A stretch of DNA of 39,938 bases from Betaproteobacteria bacterium (lineage in GTDB: Bacteria > Pseudomonadota > Gammaproteobacteria > Burkholderiales > SG8-41), in the NCBI GenBank assembly GCA_947467315.1, contig CANIID010000012.1, positions 1 to 39,938 on the forward strand, written 5' to 3'. The translations under genes were made by a program, and so were the position numbers. Shown in pieces: positions 5,550 to 36,624 of this stretch. How positions within the stretch are numbered: position 1 is the stretch's first letter; the number at the start of each line of letters is the position of its first letter. The notes below the pieces were generated by a model. That model had not been told where the DNA came from, ran no database searches, and saw only the letters and a list, made by a program, of their open reading frames with translations.

Positions 5550-6026
5550 CTACGCCTTGGGCGCCGGATGAATGTTATCCACCCAATGCACTTCGTCGGG
5601 TTTTTCAACCACGGGGATATCGAGATTCACCACCACCGGCTCCTGCCCGCTGCGCACCAGCACGCACGACAGCGGTTCGTCGTCGTTGGCGTTGATTTCC
5701 TGATGCGGCACATACGGCGGCACGTAAATAAAATCACCGGGGCCGGCCTCGGCGACAAATTCGAGCTTGTCGCCCCAGCGCATGCGCGCCTTGCCGCTGA
5801 CCACGTAGATCACACTCTCCACCGGGCCGTGATGATGCGCACCGGTCTTGGCTTTCGGATGAATCACCACCGTGCCGGCCCAGAGTTTTTCCGCGCCCAT
5901 CTTCGCGTGCGTGATCGCCGCCGCGCGGTTCATCCCCGGCGTTTGCGCGGTATTGGTGTCGAGCTCGTTGCTTTTCACCACGCGCACGCCGTGGAACTTC
6001 CATTTCGTTTCGGTGGGTTTTTCCAT
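5550..6026 (-). CDS. Cupin-domain protein
   Basis: 158 aa single-domain cupin. Motif 1 spans about residues 62-81 (TGAHHHGPVESVIYVVSG), with likely metal ligands H64, H66 and E70. Motif 2 spans about residues 96-109 (PGDFIYVPPYVPHQ), giving the fourth ligand H108. The start was chosen because AAGGAGAT precedes this ATG by 7 nt. Upstream in-frame extension would run into the neighbouring CMD gene. Small cupins of this type act as dioxygenases, isomerases or sugar/acid-binding proteins. It lies 71 nt after a CMD gene and 23 nt before a Bug gene, pointing to breakdown of an imported organic acid. The substrate is not known. Confidence 0.92.
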   Translation of the reverse strand: MEKPTETKWKFHGVRVVKSNELDTNTAQTPGMNRAAAITHAKMGAEKLWAGTVVIHPKAKTGAHHHGPVESVIYVVSGKARMRWGDKLEFVAEAGPGDFIYVPPYVPHQEINANDDEPLSCVLVRSGQEPVVVNLDIPVVEKPDEVHWVDNIHPAPKA

Positions 6027-6097
6027 GTCGATGATCTCCTTCGCGGGGCTACGCAATAATGCAATGCAGTATACAGCGCGTTTATTTTCGCATGCGC

Positions 6098-6490
6098 TTA
6101 TCGCTTGGCGGCCTTTTTCTCTTCCGCGAACACCTCCTGCGCCACCCGCACGGCATCGCGCATTACGGGCACGCCGGCGTAGACCGCGCATTGCTTCAGC
6201 ACGTCGCGTAACTCGGCCTTGGTGCAGCCGTTGTTACGCGCCGCGCGGATGTGCGTTTTGAGTTCCTCGCGGCATTTGAGCGCCGTGAGCAACGCCACGT
6301 TGATGAGGCTGCGCGTTTTGCGCGGCAACCCTTTACCCGACCAGAATTCGCCCCATACGTAGCGCGTGGTGAAGATGCGTAGCGGCGTTGAAAAATCATC
6401 TTCTTCACGAACAATAGCCGCCTCGCGTCCGGCCCCCAGCACTTCGCCGCGTGTTTTCATACCCTTTTTGTAGAGCGCGTCTTTTTTCAT
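6098..6490 (-). CDS. 4-carboxymuconolactone decarboxylase family protein
   Basis: 130 aa, the usual length of PcaC-type enzymes (about 120-135 aa). The CMD core is clear: YVWGEFWSGKGLPRKTRSL at about residues 44-62, then LLTALKCREELKTHIRAARNNG with H80, then TKAELRDVLKQCAVYAG. This pattern matches gamma-carboxymuconolactone decarboxylases of the beta-ketoadipate pathway. No other pca genes accompany it, so a paralogue acting on another compound is also possible. AAGGATTGAT precedes the ATG. It is the first gene of the minus-strand run and is divergent from the Bug gene at 6523 with only 32 nt between start codons, so control must be very compact. Confidence 0.88.
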   Translation of the reverse strand: MKKDALYKKGMKTRGEVLGAGREAAIVREEDDFSTPLRIFTTRYVWGEFWSGKGLPRKTRSLINVALLTALKCREELKTHIRAARNNGCTKAELRDVLKQCAVYAGVPVMRDAVRVAQEVFAEEKKAAKR

Positions 6491-6522: not shown

Positions 6523-7527
6523 ATGATTATGCCACGCACCGCGCACACCGGCGCTTGCCTGATATTCGCGACGTTCGCGATATTCGCAATGGCCGCGCTT
6601 GCGACGTCAGACACGCATGCGCAGCAGTTTCCCGCCAAGCCGATACGCCTGCTGGTGGGCTTCGCCCCCGGCGGCGGCACCGATATCGTCGCACGCATAC
6701 TCGCGCCCAAACTCACGGCGGCGTGGAATCAACAAGTGGTGATCGACAACCGCACCGGCGCCACCGGCACCATCGCGGCCGGCGTAGTCGCGCGCGCGAA
6801 TCCTGATGGTTATACCTTGCTGATGGGACACGCCAGCACCAACACCATCGCCCCCGCGCTCTACGCCAAGCTGCCGTTTGATCCGCACAAGGATTTTGCA
6901 CCTATCACGCTCGCCGGCTCGGTGCCGCATCTGGTGTCGGTGCATCCGTCGGTACCGGTACGCACAATCAAGGAATTGATCGCGCTGGCAAAGGCCAACC
7001 CGGGCCAGTGGACGACGCCCTCATCCGGCCACGGCAGCATGTCGCACATCGCGGGCGAAGTGTTCAAGCACGTTACCGGCACCAACTTTACGCACGTGCC
7101 GTACAAGGGCGCGGGCTTGTCGGTGCAGGATTTAATCGCGGGCCAGGTGAAGGTCAGCTTCGATACCACGGCCGCGGTGATGCCGTTCGTGAAGTCGGGC
7201 AAGCTGCGCGCGCTGGCAGCGGCCGCACCAAAGCGGCTGAGTTCACTGCCCGATTTGCCGACGGTAATTGAAGCCGGCGTACCAGGTTACGCGATGTCGA
7301 GTTGGTACGGCGTGTTCGCGCCCGCCGGCACGCCCGCAGCCATCGTGCGCACGATACACGCAGAAGTGAATCGCGCGCAGGACTTGCCCGATGTCAAAAG
7401 CCACATGGAGCAATTAGGCTCCGACGATACGCGCACCTCTACGCCCGAGATTTTCGCCGCCATGGTAAAAGCCGATATTGTGCGATTTGCGGCGGTGGTA
7501 AAGGCGGCGGGAATCCGGATTGAGTGA
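6523..7527 (+). CDS. Bug-family receptor 4
   Basis: 334 aa. The signal region ends at SDTHAQ (about residue 34), which is long for this family. A second ATG two codons later is equally possible because neither has a clear ribosome site. The core is FPAKPIRLLVGFAPGGGTD. NPDGYTLLMG, GSMSHIAGEVF and HVPYKGAGLSV follow. It is divergent from the CMD-led operon with a shared 32-nt start region, so both may answer to the same regulator. It converges on the selenoprotein gene across a perfect palindrome. The ligand is unknown. Confidence 0.94.
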   Translation: MIMPRTAHTGACLIFATFAIFAMAALATSDTHAQQFPAKPIRLLVGFAPGGGTDIVARILAPKLTAAWNQQVVIDNRTGATGTIAAGVVARANPDGYTLLMGHASTNTIAPALYAKLPFDPHKDFAPITLAGSVPHLVSVHPSVPVRTIKELIALAKANPGQWTTPSSGHGSMSHIAGEVFKHVTGTNFTHVPYKGAGLSVQDLIAGQVKVSFDTTAAVMPFVKSGKLRALAAAAPKRLSSLPDLPTVIEAGVPGYAMSSWYGVFAPAGTPAAIVRTIHAEVNRAQDLPDVKSHMEQLGSDDTRTSTPEIFAAMVKADIVRFAAVVKAAGIRIE

Positions 7528-7628: not shown

Positions 7629-9359
7629 TCAAATCCTGCACACCTCATCCCCACACCCTAAATCACGATCCGCCTCCACCAGCAATTGCTCGAAGGTTTC
7701 CGGTACGCGAATTTCCTTGCCGATGACGCGTGGGCTGTAACCCTGCAGCCAGAAGCTATTGGTCGGATGTCCACCGCCGGCGATGATGATGATGAAGTTC
7801 TCCGGCTTTAATGTAATCGGCCACGGATCGACTTTTGCGCTCGCCTGCGTTAGCGGATTGGCGTCCATCTCGATCCACGCCGTGCCGCCGTTGCGTTTGA
7901 TCTCTGCCTGCGGGATGCGTGAATGCTCGTAGAAAAACTCGCGCATCTTCGGTTTTGTCCATCCAAGTTTGGCCATGTTGTTGGCGACTACGCCCGGAAT
8001 CAGAATCGCTCCCGGCGTGCCTTTTTCGTAGCCACTCAGATTGGTGTAGTTCGGCACGCGCATGAACTCGGCCATGCGGTACATACCCTGCGTGGCATCT
8101 TCCTCGGGCGTTTCTTTTTTCGCACCGCGCCGCCGTGCGTTGGTCGCACCGTTACTGAAAAACACTGACACCGCATTGGCTTCGCGTGCAAAACCGTGGC
8201 GCTCCGTCCCATGCGTGGGCCAGCTTTCCGGCAGGTTATCCTCGTCCTCGGCAAACACCATGTTGACGCTGCGCATACCGCCGTAGTTGGCCATCGCGCC
8301 GATGCCGGGCAATGCGCCGCCGACGTTCTGCTGAATCAAGCGCAGCGCGCGCCCGATGGAAGCGCCCGCCGGACGCTGCGGGTCGGGACCCAAGCAACCA
8401 AAGCCGGAATTCAAACGAATCTGTTTCGCAATCGGCCCATTGACGACCACCACCGGAAACGCGCTGCCCGAGGCCGCCTGCAATTGTTCGGCATTGGTTT
8501 CCGGGTGCAAGAACGCTTCGACCGCCGCAATCAGCACCGGCAGATATTCAGGCCGTCCACCAGCCATCGCCAGCGACACCGCGCAGGTTTCAACAGTGGT
8601 AATGCCGCCGCGCGGCGGAAACTTGCCGACCACGTGATCACGCGGCAGCGGCGTGCCGCGCAGGATGCGATCGACACGCGACTTCGTCGCGGGCCACAAC
8701 GGCAAACCATCGCCCCACAGATTGGTGATCGCGAGATCATTCGCGCGTTGCAGCGCGTCTTCGTACGTTTCGCCTTCGACTTTGAGCATCGGCACCGCGC
8801 CGGGCGCGGCCTTGGCATACACCGACTGCCAGCGCGTGAGGCCGTCGTAGAACTCCTGCTTGCGCGTGGTGAGCGCGAGGATATCGCTGCCCGGCAAAAA
8901 CATATCGATCGGAAAGGTAATCATCGCGGCATCGGGCGCCAAGCCCAATCCCGAAATCGCGTTGGTCATCACCCCTTTGAAATCCGCCCGCGTCAGTGTA
9001 ACGGTGGGGATGCCGAGGGTTTCGATTCTAGCGGCTGCACGGCCGCAAGCTGTGGCGCAGGACCCTCAAGCCGCGTTGCCGATAATGACGGCATCGACCC
9101 CGCTTTGTTTGACCAACCGCGCGGTTTCTTCTTCGCCGATCAGCGCGTTGCCCTGCGGATACGCATCGATGGGCAGAATTTCCACATCCGGGAAATCTTT
9201 TTCAAACAATTCTTTAATCAGCGGCAGCGTGCGAAACGCCTGCCACTGTTCGTTGGTGACGAAGCCGATTTTTTTTCCCGCAATGCCATCAAGGCGTGGC
9301 GCGTGCGGCTGCGTGATCTCAATCGCGCCGGACGGATCATAGAACTCGAGTTGTACCAT
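7629..9359 (-). CDS. UGSC-family selenoprotein, read through an in-frame TGA (Sec98)
   Basis: A single 577-codon frame apart from TGA at 9068-9066, the expected selenocysteine. Sequence across it reads GNAA-U-GSCATACGRAA, the name-giving UGSC motif; C101 and C105 follow. The part before the TGA (residues 1-97, including KKIGFVTNEQWQAF and VDAVIIGNAA) and the part after it (IPTVTLTRADFKG, then a roughly 450-aa domain with VVVVNGPIAKQIRLNSGFG and QNVGGALPGIGAMANYGG) are in the same phase. A hairpin fitting the bacterial SECIS pattern starts within 20 nt of the TGA. Family members have Sec or Cys here and are probable redox enzymes with no settled reaction. The ATG has GGAG at 9-10 nt. Automatic calling would give two ORFs or a 447-aa truncated product. 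It is divergent from the acyl-CoA dehydrogenase gene. Confidence 0.88.
9028..9068 (-). promoter_or_regulatory. UGA Sec codon and bacterial SECIS-like hairpin
   Basis: On the minus strand the TGA (9068-9066) is followed by a stem GCGGC/GCCGC (9046-9042 with 9035-9031). The stem is extended by two more pairs across a T-T mismatch. The apical loop is CGTGCA. The loop begins 24 nt after the TGA and has G as its second base. The bSECIS consensus requires a G within the first two loop positions at about 16-37 nt, so this fits. Base pairing was judged by eye. Confidence 0.65.
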
Positions 9360-9455
9360 GGCATTCTCCAATGATTCGAAACGGGCAGCATCGTAGCATG
9401 CAGTCGCCGGAACGTCTCGTGATACGCTTTGTAAAATAAAATTCGGGGCATACGC

Positions 9456-10652
9456 ATGGACTACCTTATCACCGACACCCAGCGCGCTTGGCAATTAAAA
9501 GCGCGCGAATTCGCCGAAAGTGAAATTCGCCCGCTATCACTCGCGCGCGATCAGATTGCCGAACCCGCCGCTACCTTTGACTGGGAAATCATCAAAAAAG
9601 GTTCGCGGCTCGGCATTCGCACCGCCGCCGTGCCCGTCGAGTACGGCGGCCACGGCATCGACTTCACCACACAAGCGTTGATGATCACGGAAATGGCCAA
9701 GGCCGACAGCGCCATCGCAAAAACCTTCAGCCAAAGCTGGAAGTGGAGCCACCTGATTGTCGATAACGGCAACGACGAGCAGAAAAAACGTTTCTTCGAT
9801 GCCTTCGTGCATGATGACCAGTTCGTGCTCGGCGGCGGCATCACCGAACCCAACGCCGGATCGGACAACCGCCTGCCGCCGGAAGACGATCCGAAATCCG
9901 GCTTACAACTGCGCGCGACGCTCGACGGCGACACCTGGGTGTTAAACGGCGCCAAGTGCTACATCGCCAATGCCAACATTGGCAAACTGATTTTCGCCTT
10001 CACTCGCACCGACCCGAACGCGCCGGTGCAGGATGGCACGACCATCTTCGCCGTGCCGCACGACACGCCGGGACTGAAAGTCGGAAAGGTGTTCAACAAA
10101 CACGGTTGGCGCTTCTACCAAAACGCCGAGTTGTTTTTCGAGAATGTGCGCGTGCCCGACAGCAACCGCTTAGGTGCGCTGAATGGTGCGCTTAATGGCG
10201 CGCACAAAAAACACGGTGGCAAGAACAGTAAATTCGGCGATCTGGAATACGCCGCCAACGCGCTGGGCATCTGCGATGCCGCGATTGAAATGGCCACCGC
10301 ACACGGGCGCACGCACCGGCAGGCGGGCACGCGCCTAAACGAGCACCAGTTATTTCAGTTAAAGCTTTCGGAAATGCATATGCAGACCGAAGCGCTACGC
10401 TCCTTCGTAGTGCGTATCGCAGCCGAGAGCGATTGCACCGCCGACATCTCGCGCAAACACAATATGTTTCTGATGAACTTTTCGACCGATGCGATGCAGC
10501 GCGTGTGTTATCTCAATCTCGACATTCACGGTCGCGCCGCCAAGGGAGAGATCAGCGCGCGGGCAGAGAAGCTGGTGCGCGACGCGATTATCTGGACACA
10601 CATCGCGGGGGATTCGGTGCAGCGGATGAAGGCGGTTAAGGCCTTGCTGTAA
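9456..10652 (+). CDS. Acyl-CoA dehydrogenase family protein
   Basis: 398 aa with the three usual parts: an N-terminal helical domain, a beta-barrel region with GGGITEPNAGSDNR (126-139) and WVLNGAKCYIANANIG, and a C-terminal helical domain. The usual C-terminal catalytic Glu of the YEGTxEIQR motif is absent; this protein has HIAGDSVQR. A Glu at position 264 in GDLEYAA sits where isovaleryl-CoA dehydrogenase-type enzymes carry their base, so it may be active through that residue. FAD-linked alpha,beta-dehydrogenation of an acyl-CoA is the family reaction. It starts 96 nt from the divergent selenoprotein gene. No electron-transfer flavoprotein genes are nearby. Confidence 0.9.
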   Translation: MDYLITDTQRAWQLKAREFAESEIRPLSLARDQIAEPAATFDWEIIKKGSRLGIRTAAVPVEYGGHGIDFTTQALMITEMAKADSAIAKTFSQSWKWSHLIVDNGNDEQKKRFFDAFVHDDQFVLGGGITEPNAGSDNRLPPEDDPKSGLQLRATLDGDTWVLNGAKCYIANANIGKLIFAFTRTDPNAPVQDGTTIFAVPHDTPGLKVGKVFNKHGWRFYQNAELFFENVRVPDSNRLGALNGALNGAHKKHGGKNSKFGDLEYAANALGICDAAIEMATAHGRTHRQAGTRLNEHQLFQLKLSEMHMQTEALRSFVVRIAAESDCTADISRKHNMFLMNFSTDAMQRVCYLNLDIHGRAAKGEISARAEKLVRDAIIWTHIAGDSVQRMKAVKALL

Positions 10653-13958: not shown

Positions 13959-14468
13959 TCAATCGCTATTGGCTTTCTGCCACGCACCGACACTGGCATA
14001 GGTCGTGAGTCGCTCTTTTTTCTGTAGCGGCAACACCAAACGCTCCGCGTCCTTTGCGCCAAAGAAAACGTCCTTGTCGCCTGCCCACGTAAGCTTGCCG
14101 GACAGCGTGCCGTTAACGATGCGCCCCTCGAACACCGCTTGCGCCCGGCGGTTGGGTTTCAAATCTCGCCGGACGACTACCGCCTTGAATGTCACCGCGC
14201 CCGTGCGCTCATCGTAGGCGCCGTCGGCAAAGCGGCCGCGCCGACCTTCGATGTTGCCATCCCAATACACGATCTCACCCAGCAATAACCCGCCGCTGCG
14301 CCAGAGCTGCGCCCGATGCCCGTAGGTGTGATCTTCGGTAGAGCGCACTTTCGCAAACTCACCCAGGGGTTGCACCAGCGTCTTTGCCGGTTCAGCACCG
14401 TGCGCTAATGCCGCAAACAGGCTCAACACGATGCCCATGCAAAACCAAAATGCGCGCGCGGCATTCAT
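13959..14468 (-). CDS. Small exported protein of unknown function
   Basis: 169 aa from the second in-frame ATG. This start gives a classical signal peptide (MNAARAFWFCMGIVLSLFAA to ALAHGAEP). The longer start would overlap the upstream NHL gene by about 26 nt. The mature part is beta-rich with charged turns: RSTEDHTYGHRAQLWRSGG, LLGEIVYWDGNIEGRRGRFAD, and GTLSGKLTWAGDKDVFFGAK. The alternating pattern looks like a small beta-barrel or sandwich. I do not recognise the family. The gene is 13 nt after the NHL gene stop and so is probably co-transcribed. No ribosome site is obvious. Confidence 0.75.
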   Translation of the reverse strand: MNAARAFWFCMGIVLSLFAALAHGAEPAKTLVQPLGEFAKVRSTEDHTYGHRAQLWRSGGLLLGEIVYWDGNIEGRRGRFADGAYDERTGAVTFKAVVVRRDLKPNRRAQAVFEGRIVNGTLSGKLTWAGDKDVFFGAKDAERLVLPLQKKERLTTYASVGAWQKANSD

Positions 14469-14481
14469 GCGCGGCGTGCCG

Positions 14482-15354
14482 CTAATTTTTAGCCAGCTTC
14501 TGCACACGCCAGTTCAGCGGATCGGCGATGTAAATATTTTCCTGTTGATCGAGCGCGATCAAATGCGCTTCGCCGTATTGATTCGGCCCTTTGCCCTGAC
14601 TGCCGGTGATGCCCAGCACGTTGCAGTTTTCGTCGAGCTTCATCACTTTGCCCGCGTGACCGTGCGCCATCATCATGTGGCTCTGGTCGTTGCACAGGCA
14701 CAGGCCGCACGGCGTGCCGGGGTGGCTGGTCTCGCGCACATAGTTGCCGTCGGCGTCGAACACTTGGATGCGCTGGTTGGAGCGGTCGGCGATATACAGC
14801 AAACCGTTTTTGTTAATCACGATGGAGTGCGGCTGATCGAATTGCCCCGCCGCCTTGCCGGTGCCGCCCCAGGTTTTCAGGTGTGCGCCGTCGGGGGCGA
14901 ATTTATGCACCAGGGAGTTGCCTTTGCCATGGCCCTGAGTGATGTAGACCTCGCCCTTGGGGCCGAACGCGAGATCGTTAGGCTCGTCAAAACATTTGAG
15001 ATGCCCGGCCTGATGCCACTCACCCGCGCGCCCTTTCACGCCCAGCACCATGAGAATGCGCCCATCGGCGGTCATTTTCACCACGAAGTGCGCGCCGGTG
15101 TCGGTGGCCCAGATGTTGCCTTCGCGGTCGATGCGCAAGCCGTGCGGATTGGTGAACACGCCGCGCGCCATGGTTCGCAAATAGTTGCCCGCGTTGTCGA
15201 ACTCCATCAGCGCGTGTTCACCGCGATTAAACACGAGAATATTGTTTTTGGCGTTGACCGCGACGCCGGAGCAGGGGCCGAAGTTGATGCCGGCGGGCAG
15301 TTTAAAAATATCAGCGACGGGGGTGTAACCGAGATCAGGGATTTGAGTTGTCAT
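14482..15354 (-). CDS. NHL-repeat six-bladed beta-propeller protein
   Basis: 290 aa with repeated NHL blades. Each carries a P(H/N)GLRIDREGNIWATDTGAHFV-like pattern at about residues 65-90. Examples are NDLAFGPKGEVYITQGHGKG, FDQPHSIVINKNGLLYIADRSNQRIQVFD and EAHLIALDQQENIYIADPLNWRVQKL. The layout is like the lyase domain of peptidyl-alpha-hydroxyglycine amidating lyase and related bacterial proteins. There is no signal peptide, so it is likely cytoplasmic. The role is unknown. A third propeller gene (SMP-30-like) follows in the same direction after the small exported protein. It is divergent from the FAH gene across 257 nt that contain one AT-rich element. Confidence 0.88.
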   Translation of the reverse strand: MTTQIPDLGYTPVADIFKLPAGINFGPCSGVAVNAKNNILVFNRGEHALMEFDNAGNYLRTMARGVFTNPHGLRIDREGNIWATDTGAHFVVKMTADGRILMVLGVKGRAGEWHQAGHLKCFDEPNDLAFGPKGEVYITQGHGKGNSLVHKFAPDGAHLKTWGGTGKAAGQFDQPHSIVINKNGLLYIADRSNQRIQVFDADGNYVRETSHPGTPCGLCLCNDQSHMMMAHGHAGKVMKLDENCNVLGITGSQGKGPNQYGEAHLIALDQQENIYIADPLNWRVQKLAKN

Positions 15355-15490
15355 GGCGTGAGGATAGGTAGGTTGATTTTTCCGGCGGAGGTCGCCGGCG
15401 GTTTTTGCAGTGAAGCACGGAGCGTATCAGGTCTCGCTGCATCAGGCGATCACGCGCCGGCGCGCAACGCGTATGCGCACGGGAATTATG

Positions 15491-15512
15491 GCGCAAAAAC
15501 AAATGATTACCC
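15491..15512 (-). promoter_or_regulatory. 22-bp AT-rich element, copy h (weakest match)
   Basis: The minus strand reads TAATCATTTGTTTTTG within the site, keeping TAA, the central A and TGTTTTT of the consensus but not the AT-rich right flank. It lies in the divergent region between the NHL gene (start 15354) and the FAH gene (start 15612). Confidence 0.35.
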
Positions 15513-15611
15513 TCGGTCATGCCAGCCACAGCGGGCGCCCGCGACGGGGGCATCTGCTAGAATTCGCGAGCCGTAATTACCGCCCGCCTCCATCGTTTAG
15601 TGAAAGGCCCC

Positions 15612-25968: not shown

Positions 25969-27042
25969 TCACCGTGCCGGATAACTCGCGAAAATTTTGT
26001 TCGCCTGAAACAGATAGGTCTCGGCGTAGTCGTCGATCACCGGTTTGCGTCCTTGCGCTTCCATCGCGCCCGCGAGCAGCATCCAGTTCAGCACTTCGTG
26101 CTGACCGGCGGCTTCGAGTTGGGCCGTGGTGCGGCTACGCCAGTACGCGTAGTCGCCCGTCTTGAAAGCTTCGAGCAACTTGCGGTCGGATGCGTGATCG
26201 GGAATCATGCGCGCGGTGTTGGTCGATAGCGCCGCATGCGACCAGCTTGATGAGGCCATCAGCACCACGCGATACGGGGTGGCGGCGATGATGCCCGCGA
26301 GTTTCGCGCCGATGTCCATGCACAGCGCTGGCGACGGACCCGGCGGATCGGGAATCGCGGGCCGCGCCACATCACCCAGCAATCGCGCGCGGTGGCTGCC
26401 GCGTGAGTTGAGCACATCGCTGCCATAGCAATTCACATGAAACGGCACGATGGGGTGCGGAAACCCAACCCGGTCGTAATCCAGATACGCCAGCGTGTTG
26501 GTGAACGCGGTGGCGAGCACGCTCTGATGCAGCGTCTGGTACGCGTAAGGCATCAGCACGCCCTGCTGAATCAGCCCGGTGGTCAGTACTTTCGCGCCGT
26601 CGCGATGGCCGCGCAGCTTGAACGTCCAGTCGTTCGGCTCGCCCCATGCGTTGCCGGCCTCGGCGTAGCGCTTGCGGCTCCACGGCTGCGACTGAAAATC
26701 GTCGTCCAGCCCGAAAATGCAAAACGGCGGAATGATGTCTTCGCGAAAATTTTCGTATTGATCGTCGCCGAAAATCACGATGAAATCCGGCTTGAAGGCA
26801 TCGATCATACGGCGCTGCGCGCGAAAGTTTTCGATCAGGCGCGCGCGGTGTTTGCGTGACGACGTGGCCCCATCGTCGTCGCCGAACTCCGCGACCATCG
26901 CCGCCGGCCAATTCGCCGGATCGCGGTAACGCGGATCGGCATTCGGCGCGAGCAGCGCTTGCTTGAACATCGCCGCGCTGCCGGTGTCGGGCAAGGCCAG
27001 GGGCGGACTGTGGGTGGTGCCGATGCCGAGGATGTGTCCCAT
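25969..27042 (-). CDS. LigB-type class III extradiol ring-cleavage dioxygenase family protein
   Basis: 357 aa. The N-terminal GIGTTHSPPLALPD contains the typical His ligand H11. Other blocks of the LigB catalytic fold are DAFKPDFIVIFGDDQYENF near residue 85, the long HRDGAKVLTTGLIQQG region, PHPIVPFHVNCYGSD, and YRVVLMASSSWSHAALS near residue 260. LigB subunits bind Fe(II) and open catecholic rings between or beside the hydroxyls. No small LigA-type subunit gene was found next to it. It leads the run with the zinc-ribbon and hydrolase genes. Its start is 92 nt from the divergent receptor 13 gene. Confidence 0.9.
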   Translation of the reverse strand: MGHILGIGTTHSPPLALPDTGSAAMFKQALLAPNADPRYRDPANWPAAMVAEFGDDDGATSSRKHRARLIENFRAQRRMIDAFKPDFIVIFGDDQYENFREDIIPPFCIFGLDDDFQSQPWSRKRYAEAGNAWGEPNDWTFKLRGHRDGAKVLTTGLIQQGVLMPYAYQTLHQSVLATAFTNTLAYLDYDRVGFPHPIVPFHVNCYGSDVLNSRGSHRARLLGDVARPAIPDPPGPSPALCMDIGAKLAGIIAATPYRVVLMASSSWSHAALSTNTARMIPDHASDRKLLEAFKTGDYAYWRSRTTAQLEAAGQHEVLNWMLLAGAMEAQGRKPVIDDYAETYLFQANKIFASYPAR

Positions 27043-30656: not shown

Positions 30657-31907
30657 TCAGATATTCATTTCCAGAATATACAAACCACCGGTAAACCGAT
30701 CCACCGTGTAAACCAGGTTGCGGTCATCGACATACACGTCGTTGATCTGCACTGATCCCTTGGGGGAGAGCGCGGGCGCGCCCGGCACGTAGTAGGCCAC
30801 TTCCTGCGGCTGATACGGATTCTTCACGTCATACACACGCAAGCCGCCGTTGAAGAAGGTGGCGAGAATAATTTCGTCCGAGCGCCAGGCCACGTCCATC
30901 GGATAGTTTTCATACAGGTTGTGCGAGCCGTAGCGTCCGCCGCGCTTGGTGAATATTTCGGCGGGCGGCAGCGGAAACGTGGAGATCGGCACCAGGTTGG
31001 TTTCGTCGGCCATGTTGACCACCCAGGTCATCTTCGGCCAATCTTTGCCGTCGTCCTGCGTGCATTCGTCGGTGACAATCAACAGGTCTTTCGAGAACAG
31101 CGGCATCGCGGTGTGGGTAAAGCCGTTCATCGGCGGCGAGTAGTTGTAGTTGGTCACCAGTTTCGGATTGGACTTGTCCTTGATATCCAGAATCACGATG
31201 CCGCCGTCGAGATAGCCGAGATAGGCGCGATCCGGGCGCTGCGGATACCACTGCGTGTTGTGCGGACGGTAGCCGTTGTCGAATTTCGGATGGCGCTTTA
31301 ACGGCGGCTCTTTGTCCTTGACGCTTTGCCCCGGAAACCACCAGCGGCCCGCCTCGACCGGCTTGGACGGATTACGCACGTCGATGATGCGATAAATCTG
31401 GTGATCGTTCGGATTGCGCGGCTCGAAGTCAGGCGCGCCGGACGACATATGCACATACTCGTTATCCACACACCACACGCAATGCACGCCCAGCGAGTGT
31501 GGGCCGGAGGCATCAAAGTGCGAAATCTTGACCGGCTTTTCGGGCGTGCTGATGTCCCAGATATCAAAACCCGCCGGGGTCATGCCGCGATCACCGCGTA
31601 TCTGGTGCGCCACATACAAACGGTCGCCGCACACTTCAAGCGAGTTTGAGCGCATCTTGTGATGCGGCAACTCGGTTTGGATGATGACTTTCGGCTTCAA
31701 CGGATCGGTCACATCCACACCGGTGAAATTTTTCGGCGCGGCCTCGTGGCCCAGCCACATGATGCGGCGGCCGTCTTTGGTTTTTTGCATGCCCATGCCT
31801 TCGCCCACACCGCCAAAACCATCCAGCGTGTTGTGCGACAGCAATTTGAAATTGTACGAAAGCGTTTGCGATGCGTTAGTGCCTGACGCGATGGGGGCTT
31901 GTGCCAT
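30657..31907 (-). CDS. LVIVD-repeat protein (putative beta-propeller)
   Basis: 416 aa. Repeated units of the form FDIWDISTPEKPVKISHFD, YRIIDVRNPSKPVEAGRWW, IVILDIKDKSNPKLVTNYNY and LRVYDVKNPYQPQEVAYYVPG mark it as an LVIVD-repeat protein, which folds as a propeller. CVWCVDNEYVHMSS contains a CxxC at about residues 149-152. No signal peptide is present even though many relatives are exported. AAGGAAAAAC precedes the ATG. An AT-rich element lies 34 nt upstream of the start. The role is unknown; proteins of this type accompany aromatic-acid catabolic clusters, which fits here as context only. Confidence 0.9.
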   Translation of the reverse strand: MAQAPIASGTNASQTLSYNFKLLSHNTLDGFGGVGEGMGMQKTKDGRRIMWLGHEAAPKNFTGVDVTDPLKPKVIIQTELPHHKMRSNSLEVCGDRLYVAHQIRGDRGMTPAGFDIWDISTPEKPVKISHFDASGPHSLGVHCVWCVDNEYVHMSSGAPDFEPRNPNDHQIYRIIDVRNPSKPVEAGRWWFPGQSVKDKEPPLKRHPKFDNGYRPHNTQWYPQRPDRAYLGYLDGGIVILDIKDKSNPKLVTNYNYSPPMNGFTHTAMPLFSKDLLIVTDECTQDDGKDWPKMTWVVNMADETNLVPISTFPLPPAEIFTKRGGRYGSHNLYENYPMDVAWRSDEIILATFFNGGLRVYDVKNPYQPQEVAYYVPGAPALSPKGSVQINDVYVDDRNLVYTVDRFTGGLYILEMNI

Positions 31908-31963: not shown

Positions 31964-32096
31964 GCTATTTTTAGAAGGGCGGAAAACTGCTGTTTGTCGC
32001 GGCGCGCAGGCGTATGCTTCATCGCGCCGCACAGCGAACATTATAATCAACTGCGGCTTCCTCATTCGCAAGTCTCACAAACAACAGGAGTCCGCC

Positions 32097-33203
32097 ATGT
32101 CGATCCATCTGAATCGCCGTAAGTTCGTAATGGGATCCGCCGCCGTGATCGCGCAAATGGGCATGGCGCAACGGGCGTTCGCGCAAGCGCCCAAGCTGAC
32201 TGTGCCCAACGTGGACAGCCTGACCATACGCGTTGTCACTGACAGCAGTTACGACACGCCGCAACCAGGAACGAATAAGTGGGTAAAGGTCCGCCGTGCC
32301 GGGATCAGAAACCTGCCGGACTGGCGCAAGACGCTGCATAGCGAATGGGGCCTGTCGCTCGCGCTGGAATCGCGTATTGGTTCCGACACTCGCAACCTGC
32401 TGCTCGATTTCGGCTACACGCCGAACGCGATGCTCAACAACATGGAATTCATGGGCATCGACGGCGCGAAGATGCAGGGACTCATCGTCAGCCACGGGCA
32501 CAACGACCATTTCGGCGGCATGCTTGGTTTCCTGGAAAAATTCCGTGATAAATTGCCCGACGATCTCACGCTCTATGTGGGCGGCGAAGACAATTTCTGC
32601 AATCGCGTGGCGCCACGAGGCGCATCGGGTCAGTTCACCGACACGGGCGTGATCGACCGCCGTGACCTGGAAAAACACCGCGTGAAAATCGTGTCGTGCG
32701 AACAGCCAACTGTCGTCATGGGCCACGCATTTACCACCGGCATGATTCAGCGACGCAGCTTCGAACGCATATTGCCAAACACAATGGTCGAGTACTTCAA
32801 ACGCAACAACGTAGGCTGCGAAATGCCCGAAGCCAACGCCAAGGCCGGCGGCAAGCCGGTTGCCGACACGCATATTCACGAGCACGCCACATGCTTCAAT
32901 GTGAAGGATCGCGGACTGGTGGTGATCTCTTCCTGCGGCCACGTCGGCATCGTCAATAGCGTACGCCAAGCGATGGAAGTTTCCGGCGTGAACAAAGTGC
33001 ATGCCGCGCTGGGAGGCTTCCACCTGTTCCCGGCACCTGCGGAATATTTGCGCCAAACCGTCGCCGAGTTGAAAGCACTCGATCCCGATGTAATTGTCCC
33101 GCTGCATTGCTCCGGCCCCGGGCTGATCGCGCTGCTGCGCACCGAACTTGCCGACCGCGTGGTCACCTCCACCACCGGCACGGAGTACACCTTCGGCGCG
33201 TGA
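32097..33203 (+). CDS. Tat-exported metallo-beta-lactamase-fold hydrolase
   Basis: 368 aa. The N-terminus has a twin-arginine signal (NRRKFVMGSAAVIAQ, cleavage near AFAQA), so the protein is probably folded and loaded with metal before export. The MBL metal motif HGHNDH is at 133-138; SSCGHVGIVNSVRQA and GGFHLF near residues 280-310 are also typical. The arrangement matches the branch that includes dihydropterin-methyl-aminobenzene phosphate synthase-like proteins rather than beta-lactamases. The reaction is unknown. AACAGGAGTCCGCC precedes the ATG. Its TGA overlaps the ATG of the SCO1 gene by one base, which implies translational coupling. Confidence 0.92.
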   Translation: MSIHLNRRKFVMGSAAVIAQMGMAQRAFAQAPKLTVPNVDSLTIRVVTDSSYDTPQPGTNKWVKVRRAGIRNLPDWRKTLHSEWGLSLALESRIGSDTRNLLLDFGYTPNAMLNNMEFMGIDGAKMQGLIVSHGHNDHFGGMLGFLEKFRDKLPDDLTLYVGGEDNFCNRVAPRGASGQFTDTGVIDRRDLEKHRVKIVSCEQPTVVMGHAFTTGMIQRRSFERILPNTMVEYFKRNNVGCEMPEANAKAGGKPVADTHIHEHATCFNVKDRGLVVISSCGHVGIVNSVRQAMEVSGVNKVHAALGGFHLFPAPAEYLRQTVAELKALDPDVIVPLHCSGPGLIALLRTELADRVVTSTTGTEYTFGA

Positions 33204-33847
33204 TGTACGCACGGTGGATTGGCGCGGCATTTACCCTGTGCGCGTCATCGTGGGTAATGCAAGCACCCGCGCAAACGGAAGTGCGTGGCACGGATGCGCC
33301 GCGCGAAGACGGGCGCGCTCGGGCGGCGCAATTCATGAACGAGTTGATGCTGGGCAAAGCGCCCGTCGGCACGCCGTTCACGCTCACCAATCAACACGGC
33401 AAACGCGTCAGTCTCGGGGATTTTCGCGGCAAGGTGGTGCTGCTTTACTTCGGCTACACCTTTTGCCCCGATGTCTGCCCGACCGATCTGCTCGCCATCG
33501 CACAAACCCTGAAGTCGCTCGGCAAGAGCGCTGATCAGGTGCAGCCGATCTTCGTGACGCTCGATCCGGCGCGCGACACGCGCGAACTGCTGCGCAACTA
33601 TGCCGCAGCGTTTCATCCGCGCATCGTCGCGCTGACCGGCAGCGAAGCTGAAATACGGCGCATCGCCACCGCCTACAAGGTGTACTACGAGAAAATAACG
33701 CCACCGGATTCGAAAACTTATTTCATCAACCATGCCGCCTATACGTTCCTGCTCGACCGCCAGGGCAAGTACGTGTTGTTCTTTCCGCCGGGCACCACGC
33801 CCACACGCATGACGGCGATGGTGCGCGACGAGTTGGCGGTAAAATAA
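33203..33847 (+). CDS. SCO1/SenC family copper chaperone
   Basis: 214 aa. A thioredoxin-fold protein with the SCO copper site: C88 and C92 in FCPDVC and H177 in NHAAYTFLLD. An N-terminal hydrophobic segment (WIGAAFTLCASSWVMQAPAQ) is a signal peptide or anchor. The family delivers copper to the CuA centre of cytochrome c oxidase or acts as a thiol reductase. No oxidase genes are nearby. Its start codon overlaps the stop of the MBL gene, and the Bug gene begins 5 nt after its stop. The context therefore suggests maturation or protection of a periplasmic partner instead of, or besides, oxidase assembly. A longer in-frame start would lie inside the MBL gene. Confidence 0.92.
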   Translation: MYARWIGAAFTLCASSWVMQAPAQTEVRGTDAPREDGRARAAQFMNELMLGKAPVGTPFTLTNQHGKRVSLGDFRGKVVLLYFGYTFCPDVCPTDLLAIAQTLKSLGKSADQVQPIFVTLDPARDTRELLRNYAAAFHPRIVALTGSEAEIRRIATAYKVYYEKITPPDSKTYFINHAAYTFLLDRQGKYVLFFPPGTTPTRMTAMVRDELAVK

Positions 33848-34849: not shown

Positions 34850-36028
34850 CTATTTCAGCAGGACTTCCGCTACGGCACGCGCTTCCGGCGCGACGTCATA
34901 AGAATAAAGTTGCTTGCGAAAATTTGCGTGCGCGACGAGCTGTGCGTCGCGGGCTGCGAGATCAGCGTCAGCGGAATCGACACGCAGTCCATTCTGACGT
35001 GCACCTAACTGCACCGCCGCCACGCGCTCGCGCCGCAGCTTTTCGTAGGCCAGCAGCGCCACTGGCACTGCCGAGGTATCGACCCGCGCGAGGATCGTCG
35101 CCAGCGCCATGCCGTCCTCTATCGACTGGTTAGCGCCCTGCCCCAGATGCGGCAACATCGGATGCGCCGCGTCGCCGAGCAGCGTGAGCCGGCCTTGCGT
35201 CCAGGTCGGCAGCGGCTCGCGGTCGTAGAGCGCCCAGCGAAAGGTTTTATCCACCTGCTTGAGCACCGCATCGATGCGCGGATCCCAGCCCTCAAACTCG
35301 CGGCGCAGCACGTCGGGGTCGCCGGGTGCGGACCACGATTCTTTCATTTCGGCGTCCGCGGGCACGAAACCGACGTAGTTAACCATTGTGCCGTGGCGTA
35401 CCGGGAACACCAGAAAATGTTTGGACGGCCCTGCCCACATTTGCCAGCGGTCCATCGGCCAGTCGGGCAGGCGTTCGCGCGCGACCAAACCGCGATACGA
35501 AATCGTGCCGTGAAACACCGGCGTCGAGGGCGGAAACACAAACGGCCGCAGTTCGGAGTGGATGCCGTCGGCGGCCACCACCCCATCGGCCTCGACGGCG
35601 GCGCCGTTGGAAAATGTGACGCGCGCGCTATCGCCGTTCTGCGCGAAGCCCACGGCGCGGTGGCCGGTATGCACCACACCGGCGGGCAGATTGGCGGCGA
35701 GGAAATCGACAAAGTCGGCACGATGCATACCAAAGCACGGGTTGCCGGCGGCGTCAGTCACCTGCACCGGAGCGATCGGCGTGCCGTCGTGGCGAAAGTA
35801 GTGGGAGTCGGCGCCGACCCGCGCGCCCCATTTCTCGACGGCAGGCCCGAGCCCTACACGCTCCAGATGACGCACCGCATTCGGTGTCACATACACCCCG
35901 GCGCCGATCTCGCCCAGCGCGGGCGCTTGTTCATACACAGCAACGCGCAGCCCCTGCGCGATCAGCGCATTGGCGGCGAACAAACCACCGATGCCGCCGC
36001 CGACAATTACGACACTGGGCGAAGCCAC
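34850..36028 (-). CDS. FAD-dependent aromatic-ring monooxygenase (salicylate hydroxylase-like)
   Basis: 392 aa from a GTG that gives the usual short lead into VVIVGGGIGG (residues 6-15, FAD-binding). A GTG seven codons earlier would overlap the GST gene by 19 nt. DGVVAADGIHSELR (the DG motif) is near residue 160, and LLGDAAHPMLPHLGQGANQSIEDG (second FAD motif) is near 280. These mark class A flavoprotein hydroxylases that use NAD(P)H and O2 to hydroxylate aromatic acids. It starts 2 nt downstream of the GST stop and is probably co-transcribed with that gene. The substrate is unknown; salicylate- or hydroxybenzoate-like acids are likely. It converges on receptor 15. Confidence 0.91.
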   Translation of the reverse strand: MASPSVVIVGGGIGGLFAANALIAQGLRVAVYEQAPALGEIGAGVYVTPNAVRHLERVGLGPAVEKWGARVGADSHYFRHDGTPIAPVQVTDAAGNPCFGMHRADFVDFLAANLPAGVVHTGHRAVGFAQNGDSARVTFSNGAAVEADGVVAADGIHSELRPFVFPPSTPVFHGTISYRGLVARERLPDWPMDRWQMWAGPSKHFLVFPVRHGTMVNYVGFVPADAEMKESWSAPGDPDVLRREFEGWDPRIDAVLKQVDKTFRWALYDREPLPTWTQGRLTLLGDAAHPMLPHLGQGANQSIEDGMALATILARVDTSAVPVALLAYEKLRRERVAAVQLGARQNGLRVDSADADLAARDAQLVAHANFRKQLYSYDVAPEARAVAEVLLK

Positions 36029-36030
36029 GT

Positions 36031-36624
36031 TTATTTGCGCTCCGGCCACTTCGGCACGGCTTCACAGCGCCTTAACCACGCCACCACATGCGGATACGCC
36101 GCCACATCAAACTCGCCTTCCGGCGATTTCGCCACGTACGGATAACACGCGATGTCGGCGATGGTGGTGCGGCCCACGGCGAGCCAGTCGTTGTGCTGCA
36201 AGTGATCGTTGAGTATTTGCAGCGCCAGCCGCCCCTGCCGCTGCATCTCCACGAAGTCGCCTGTCGTTTTCAATTTCAATACGACGCCGCGCGCCCACTG
36301 CAAGCCAAACTGCACCTGGTTCTGCGCGAACGCCATCCAGTGCATCACATCGGTCATGCCCAGCGGATCGGTCGGCAGCCATTGCTCGCCGCCCCACTTG
36401 CGTGCGATGTAGACCAGGTGCGCGGTGGAATCCCAGAAATATTTTCCTTCGATCTCCATCGCCGGCACCTGCCCGCGCGGATTGATCTGCATAAACCACG
36501 GCGACTTATGTTCACGCTTGCCGAAAAAATCCAGATCGACGCGCTCGCACGGCACGTCCAGCAGCGACAGCAGAATGCGGATTTTCCAGGAATTGCCGGA
36601 ATTGTCGGAGGCGTAGAGTTTCAT
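36031..36624 (-). CDS. Glutathione S-transferase family protein
   Basis: 197 aa. The thioredoxin-like N-terminal domain has KLYASDNSGNSWKIRILLSL with a likely catalytic Ser/Asn, NPRGQVPAMEIEGKYFWDST with the cis-Pro of VPA, and an all-alpha C-terminal domain ending DWLAVGRTTIADIACYPYV. GSTs in aromatic clusters serve as maleylpyruvate-type isomerases or thiol transferases. The FAD monooxygenase gene follows directly. A monooxygenase with a glutathione-dependent enzyme would fit a gentisate-like route, but no gentisate dioxygenase is present here. An AT-rich element lies 19 nt upstream of the ATG. Confidence 0.91.
   Translation of the reverse strand: MKLYASDNSGNSWKIRILLSLLDVPCERVDLDFFGKREHKSPWFMQINPRGQVPAMEIEGKYFWDSTAHLVYIARKWGGEQWLPTDPLGMTDVMHWMAFAQNQVQFGLQWARGVVLKLKTTGDFVEMQRQGRLALQILNDHLQHNDWLAVGRTTIADIACYPYVAKSPEGEFDVAAYPHVVAWLRRCEAVPKWPERK

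Follow-up and report, generated by a model that had tools for sequence, protein, structure and literature searches.

A gene on the minus strand of a 39,938-nucleotide stretch of DNA (the window) from an uncultured Burkholderiales lineage almost certainly encodes a selenoprotein of the UGSC family, with UGA at codon 98 standing for selenocysteine (Sec) as judged from sequence comparison, and its genome carries 29 members of this one family. The best explanation of the data as a whole, to which we give a probability of roughly 0.57, is that the gene encodes a UGSC selenoprotein, for which a thioredoxin-fed reductase resembling GrdB is the tentatively proposed function. The gene occupies positions 9359-7629 of the minus strand as a single frame of 576 codons (9359..7632, followed by the stop TGA at 7631-7629) that is interrupted only by a TGA at 9068-9066, codon 98, within the motif GNAA-TGA-GSC. 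A ribosome-binding site, GGAGA (9365-9369), was placed by eye five bases 5′ of the ATG at 9359. Ordinary open reading frame calling splits the gene into a frame of 142 amino acids (TTG at 9494) and one of 447 amino acids (GTG at 8972). A preliminary description of this DNA had already recognized two frames in one phase joined by TGA at the expected motif, the 447-residue piece that standard annotation would leave, and membership in the UGSC family, and all three points stand. The Pfam UGSC model (PF24696) matches residues 7-150 (8910..9341, minus strand) at 64.2 bits against a cut-off of 25, and because this match runs across the TGA, the in-frame motif is beyond chance. The NCBIfam equivalog NF041046 gives the window protein 42.4 bits, below its cut-off of 125, which marks the protein as a divergent UGSC member.

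The window gene is a divergent, fused member of an already known family, and fusion of UGSC to an unnamed domain is known as well. It shares with the family (PF24696, NF041046) the domain and the motif, with Sec or Cys at the first position, and it differs from the typical member in its divergence, in its fusion to a 385-residue C-terminal domain (7632..8786, minus strand), and in being one of 29 copies per genome. The start motif of the C-terminal domain is D-G-[LM]-P-x-x-P-[PA]-T. The UGSC/Unknown_1 fusion of the Global Ocean Sampling selenoproteome, compared here by its description in that paper, also combines UGSC with a conserved domain without known function (PMC2398784).

Comparative analysis has added considerable weight to the earlier proposal that UGA is decoded as Sec. 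All 35 of the distinct orthologues that were fetched and aligned contain exactly one internal stop, a TGA that falls at one and the same alignment position throughout. Measured against the window gene, mean pN/pS over this set, in which contigs found twice across two locus sets were counted once, was 0.24 before the TGA, 0.16 in codons +1 to +50, and 0.25 beyond. The gene is under purifying selection on both sides of the TGA, a pattern that points to TGA being kept as a sense codon. Two lower-ranked full-length rows outside the 35 carry an extra stop: G023:C44 has two TGA codons and G018:C16 has a TGA and a TAA. Eighteen homologues from other lineages or with variant states were also read at the Sec position. 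Cys is found in nine (Natrinema, Halalkalicoccus, Halorientalis, Arthrobacter, two Variovorax, Roseovarius, G241, and one gene of G021), TGA in six (Acidovorax T1, two Paracoccus records, two genes of G237, and G406), and Met in two (Vibrio europaeus and Sporomusa termitida). The last, G372, has its motif Cys within a frame that is interrupted, and it was left out of the count of Cys homologues. The alignment at residue 98 called for in the preliminary description has thus returned Sec or Cys, with Met in two distant homologues. Within the genome of the window, Sec is invariant in 29/29 paralogues and the Cys three residues on is nearly so.

The machinery for Sec insertion, which the preliminary description had suggested looking for, is complete in the genome of origin (G000; 5.2 Mb in 412 contigs, 98.1% complete, 4.18% contaminated). 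The tRNA-Sec scores 74.5 bits and is confirmed by ARAGORN with anticodon TCA, selA (583 bits) and selB (447 bits) lie together on contig C201 beside a UGSC paralogue, and selD (423 bits) has one in-frame TGA of its own. Among the matches listed, selB also falls within 6 kb of UGSC genes in G003, G009, G017, G033, G042, and G058, and in the cultured Paracoccus ferrooxidans selB and a UGSC gene are about 4.4 kb apart. Across 100 genomes, the own genome and relatives, UGSC occurs in 63, namely in all 60 of the own family and in 3/40 of the others. Scoring selB as present when over the profile cut-off, 58 of these genomes have both UGSC and selB, five have UGSC only, nine selB only, and 28 neither, a table in which members of the same family do not count as independent. 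For genomes outside the own family the corresponding counts are 3, 0, 9, and 28 (P 0.02). The five UGSC genomes with no selB over the cut-off comprise two with a partial selB (G013 and G029) and three with none (G022, G034, and G050).

These observations bear on two other readings of the TGA. Were it a real stop, the locus would be a split gene, a pseudogene, or a source of two proteins of 97 and 447 amino acids. Start codons are indeed present for both pieces, but the TGA in 35/35 orthologues, the purifying selection on both sides, the retained hairpin described below, the Sec machinery in the genome, and the Cys homologues that read straight through make this very improbable. A pseudogene was accordingly rejected. 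Decoding of UGA as another amino acid, through a changed code or a suppressor, has a negligible probability and was rejected: nothing was found in its favor, tRNA-Sec is present, TGA terminates the window gene, the first stop beyond the motif is again TGA in 15/29 paralogous frames of the same genome, and homologues carry Cys, not Trp, at the TGA position.

A SECIS-type hairpin, GCGGC-CGUGCA-GCCGC with G as the second loop base (9031..9046, minus strand), begins 19 nt 3′ of the TGA. Codons +7 to +11 have the lowest synonymous entropy of 444 five-codon windows in the orthologues (0.09 against a median of 0.62), and the codons that flank the hairpin, +6 and +12, each occur in four synonymous forms. 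The stem is paired in 35/35 orthologues, five of them with one G-U wobble. The folding energy of the hairpin is not unusual (z +1.0 to +1.3) and is weaker than that of synonymous recodings (z +2.1). Other paralogues have a different hairpin 11 nt 3′ of the TGA, which pairs 7/7 in 14/29 and 6/7 in two more; the window gene is not among these 16. Taken together, the 29 paralogues fold better than their synonymous recodings (combined z −3.9, compared with −1.9 to +0.1 at five control offsets), and 72.9% of the cells in their shared structure are paired, compared with 59.2% in shuffles (0/500 as high) and at most 52.2% in slid registers. The covariation score of 0.286 is approached by two slid versions (0.268 and 0.236), and pairs with two-sided changes do not exceed those of shuffles (152/500). 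The case for the hairpin consequently rests on pairing and synonymous conservation and not on covariation, which does not stand clearly above the slid and shuffled controls. This paralogue hairpin pairs at 6 or 7 of 7 positions in the five TGA genes measured and at 1 to 7 of 7 in Cys homologues. Since Cys homologues also pair, the protein sequence accounts for part of the paralogue hairpin.

The multiplication of the family is the part of this work that we expect to surprise a specialist. In this genome 29 UGSC domains exceed the Pfam cut-off, every one of them containing a single TGA, and there is one weak fragment besides; 14 control genomes contained no UGSC domain. Thirteen of the 29 carry the C-terminal domain as a fusion and the other 16 are short, seven of the latter being followed directly by a separate frame for the C-terminal domain. 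No pair exceeds 67.3% identity, so these copies are not strain duplicates. Five relatives gave 58 (G014), 40 (G040), 35 (G013), 21 (G021), and 19 (G064) UGSC matches. In G014, 52 of the 58 were read and all have TGA at the motif, in the forms UGSC (31), UGGC (12), UGAC (7), and UGTC (2); their highest pairwise identity is 74.9%, two have an extra stop, and 29 have a perfect 7-bp hairpin. An even draw across the phylum found UGSC in only 4/397 other genomes, with one or two matches each. Counts per genome are lower bounds, with at most 31 candidates scored in the 100-genome set and at most eight in the phylum draw.

No report of a UGSC expansion on this scale was found in the literature searched, which excluded most subscription journals. 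A 2016 survey of more than 5200 organisms tabulates 33 UGSC selenoproteins in 26 organisms (PMC5029168), and the 255 UGSC selenoproteins given for the Global Ocean Sampling are counted over metagenome samples and not per genome (PMC2398784). The richest bacterial selenoproteomes described in a further source are those of Olavius algarvensis Delta 1, with at least 57 genes, and a Methylomirabilota MAG, with 63; by that account, the richest known are mostly from anaerobes and sum many families (PMC13188914). The likeness to these bacteria lies in the very large selenoprotein sets. The difference is that their totals cover whole selenoproteomes, whereas here one family alone supplies 29 members and, in a relative, 58 matches.

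Public annotation offers two examples of how such genes are recorded. On plasmid p2-T1 of Acidovorax sp. T1 (NZ_CP021650.1), typed as conjugative IncP, a UGSC gene with TGA and a 7/7 hairpin is annotated only as a short hypothetical protein, and a match to the C-terminal domain falls where no gene is listed. On plasmid pFER4 of Paracoccus ferrooxidans (CP038202.1), the annotation breaks a UGSC gene at the TGA into two hypothetical proteins, and genes for selB, cysteine desulfurase, TusA, and DsrE lie nearby. Because annotation can cut or split UGSC genes at the TGA in this way, the family is easily hidden. As a separate matter of labeling, 7/19 public MAG records with orthologues bear the title Bordetella parapertussis, while the titles given to their near relatives read Betaproteobacteria or Burkholderiales bacterium; the Bordetella label on these seven records is probably wrong.

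Structural modeling gave five models of the UGSC domain with mean pLDDT values of 74.4, 61.0, 56.5, 54.7, and 44.4. In the best of these (pTM 0.72), Sec is placed at the start of a helix, between a strand at residues 90-94 and a helix at 99-114. Its structural matches with Z of 8 to 9.6 are a designed protein, CheY-type receivers, B12-binding-type domains, SGNH esterases, and PurE, and the predicted alpha-beta fold can be summed up as Rossmann-like. Thioredoxin is absent from the best 50 structural matches listed for this model, and Foldseek returned no PDB match with E ≤0.001. An entry named GrdB is absent from the best 50 of either structural match list, which proves nothing. A full-length AlphaFold2 model was set aside at pLDDT 44. 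Sequence and profile searches of the PDB with the window protein and with full-length, UGSC, and C-terminal profiles yielded no credible match; the best, to a succinate dehydrogenase flavoprotein, had an E of 0.0045 over 48 positions. For the C-terminal domain, no Pfam family and no PDB relative were found. In the orthologue group of the window gene it ends in CX4C at the extreme C-terminus, and plasmids of Haloarchaea, Actinomycetota, and Pseudomonadota carry a gene for this domain together with UGSC genes. No relative turned up in two pattern scans of viral contigs.

A lead to the chemistry comes from GrdB and related proteins. Against seven GRDB-like proteins, the UGSC profile aligns Sec with the first Cys of CPxC at E values of 1.5e-4 to 2.1e-4. 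The UGSC-domain profile scores 34.0 in this comparison; among 137 unrelated single proteins the highest score is 25.3, and 60 column shuffles reach at most 20.0. Taken singly, the seven GRDB-like proteins score 19.4 to 31.4, all over the same region and only three of them above 25.3. The match is short (44-82 columns) with an hhalign probability of 46-51%, and for these reasons we treat it as a lead only. Besides UGSC, the commonest weak Pfam match among the 29 members is PF09338 (Gly_reductase), found in three with a best E of 0.0098. PF07355 (GRDB) has no match in the own genome, in the window protein at 1e-3, or in the 29 domains at E 5. The possible likeness to GrdB (PF07355) and PrdB is one of UxxC or CxxC motifs in register in a weak profile alignment, joined by a thioredoxin reductase in the gene neighborhood of some UGSC members. 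The two groups differ in the missing PF07355 match in the own genome and in the C-terminal partner domain.

The link to thioredoxin comes from plasmids. In 3/11 annotated plasmid stretches (a twelfth has no annotation), the genes for UGSC and the C-terminal domain have, at a distance of less than 2 kb, a thioredoxin reductase gene that passes the NCBIfam cut-off; these are Arthrobacter, where trxA is also present, Variovorax SRS16, and Roseovarius THAF8. In V. boronicumulans a TrxB-like gene that scores below this cut-off lies near the fused UGSC gene, and all four of these homologues are Cys forms. By tblastn, no trxB was found in 28 UGSC stretches of the own genome or in six stretches of G014 and G021. 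The clostridial grd operon for glycine reductase, as described in the source cited, carries both trxA and trxB (PMC10880999). GrdB-like proteins have also been put forward, in a paper concerned with fluoroacetate, as acting on that compound (PMC10838667), a proposal that suggests such chemistry may be diverted to other substrates.

A mechanism can be outlined on this basis. SelB and Sec-tRNA very probably read the UGA at codon 98 as Sec, guided by the downstream hairpin, and Sec is predicted at the helix start of the Rossmann-like domain, followed three residues later by Cys (U-x-x-C). Other UGSC members carry the fused C-terminal domain as a partner encoded by a separate gene, and the two domains together may resemble protein B of glycine reductase in their action. 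The selenol would attack an activated C-X bond in a small organic acid or a derivative of one, which a receptor of the TctC type may deliver, after which the UxxC pair would form a selenenylsulfide to be reduced by the thioredoxin system. The paralogues could then be versions for different substrates. Taken alone, a GrdB-like mechanism of thioredoxin-fed reductive cleavage of organic substrates is a tentative assignment, and we have held it slightly lower than we otherwise might because the scores of single GRDB-like proteins overlap the background in part.

The neighborhood of the window gene supplies further context. A TctC/Bug-type substrate-binding receptor (6523..7527, plus strand), identified with Pfam and in orthologue loci, converges on the UGSC gene, and downstream lie a carboxymuconolactone-decarboxylase-family protein (6098..6490, minus strand; Pfam and NCBIfam) and a cupin-domain protein (5550..6191, minus strand; Pfam). 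TctC genes are found in 57/215 frames near UGSC genes compared with 17/137 in 11 other stretches (odds ratio 2.5, P 0.002), where the 215 are 218 frames minus three pieces of UGSC genes, the comparison is among the families listed, and the frames were called by length with some being spurious. TctC is abundant throughout this genome, so the excess near UGSC genes is an enrichment and not an exclusive association. CoA-transferases are not enriched in the same comparison (3/215 and 4/137). Between 414 and 34821 of the window, 14 TctC/Bug-type receptor genes were counted among the 27 other window proteins scanned. Long frames of the window at 14431-15573, 25972-27042, 30660-31907, 32022-33230, and 35147-36142 have no Pfam match at 1e-10 and may be new families or spurious.

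The preliminary description had gone further in naming the divergent acyl-CoA dehydrogenase (9456..10652, plus strand; Pfam) as a possible partner, a suggestion that finds little support here. This gene lies divergently beside the UGSC gene in 8/19 orthologue loci, all at ≥88% UGSC protein identity; it is absent from three loci at 92-95% (within the available sequence) and from seven more distant ones, and one locus is too short. With three equally close loci lacking it, an obligate partnership was rejected and the gene is best regarded as a neighbor in close relatives. Near UGSC genes more widely, acyl-CoA dehydrogenases make up 3/109 frames. The label of redox protein in the same description is an inference only.

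Two other functions compete with the GrdB-like reductase. The stronger, which we still consider unlikely, is a general thiol or selenol oxidoreductase, such as a peroxide or disulfide reductase, in place of a substrate-specific C-X reductase. The UxxC motif and the trxB and trxA neighbors of some homologues would suit it, and a 2008 paper, in its remarks on the UGSC family, guessed at a thioredoxin-like fold and called the family likely Trx-like (PMC2398784). In contrast, the UGSC-domain model matches Rossmann-like folds with Z up to 9.6, and at least 29 divergent copies per genome with TctC enriched nearby suit many substrates better than redox housekeeping. An improbable further option is a lyase, hydratase, or epimerase with Sec or Cys as nucleophile or base and no redox turnover. 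Homologues with Met in place of Sec would fit such an enzyme: plasmids of Vibrio europaeus and Sporomusa termitida carry fused UGSC-like proteins of this kind near genes for aconitase X and DUF126. MmgE/PrpD enzymes, found in 6/106 of the neighboring frames scanned, would fit as well. Against it stand the trxB association in some homologues and the near-complete conservation of the Sec and Cys pair among the 29 paralogues of the own genome.

Returning to the GrdB-like reductase, its link to thioredoxin reductase and the existence of cultured carriers (Acidovorax, Paracoccus, Variovorax, and Roseovarius) make the function testable. A broader picture, which we offer as possible rather than probable, is that an uncultured Burkholderiales family has built much of its catabolism on one multiplied selenoenzyme, each genome encoding dozens of UGSC proteins, of which many have their own partner domain and uptake receptors nearby, and that these form a large unrecognized class of thioredoxin-fed, GrdB-like reductases for many organic substrates. 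If true, a single family would give one relative roughly the number of selenoproteins that all families together supply in the richest bacteria known. One family at 29-58 copies in a betaproteobacterial lineage would change the picture of the selenoproteome and would point to an unexplored class of catabolic enzymes.
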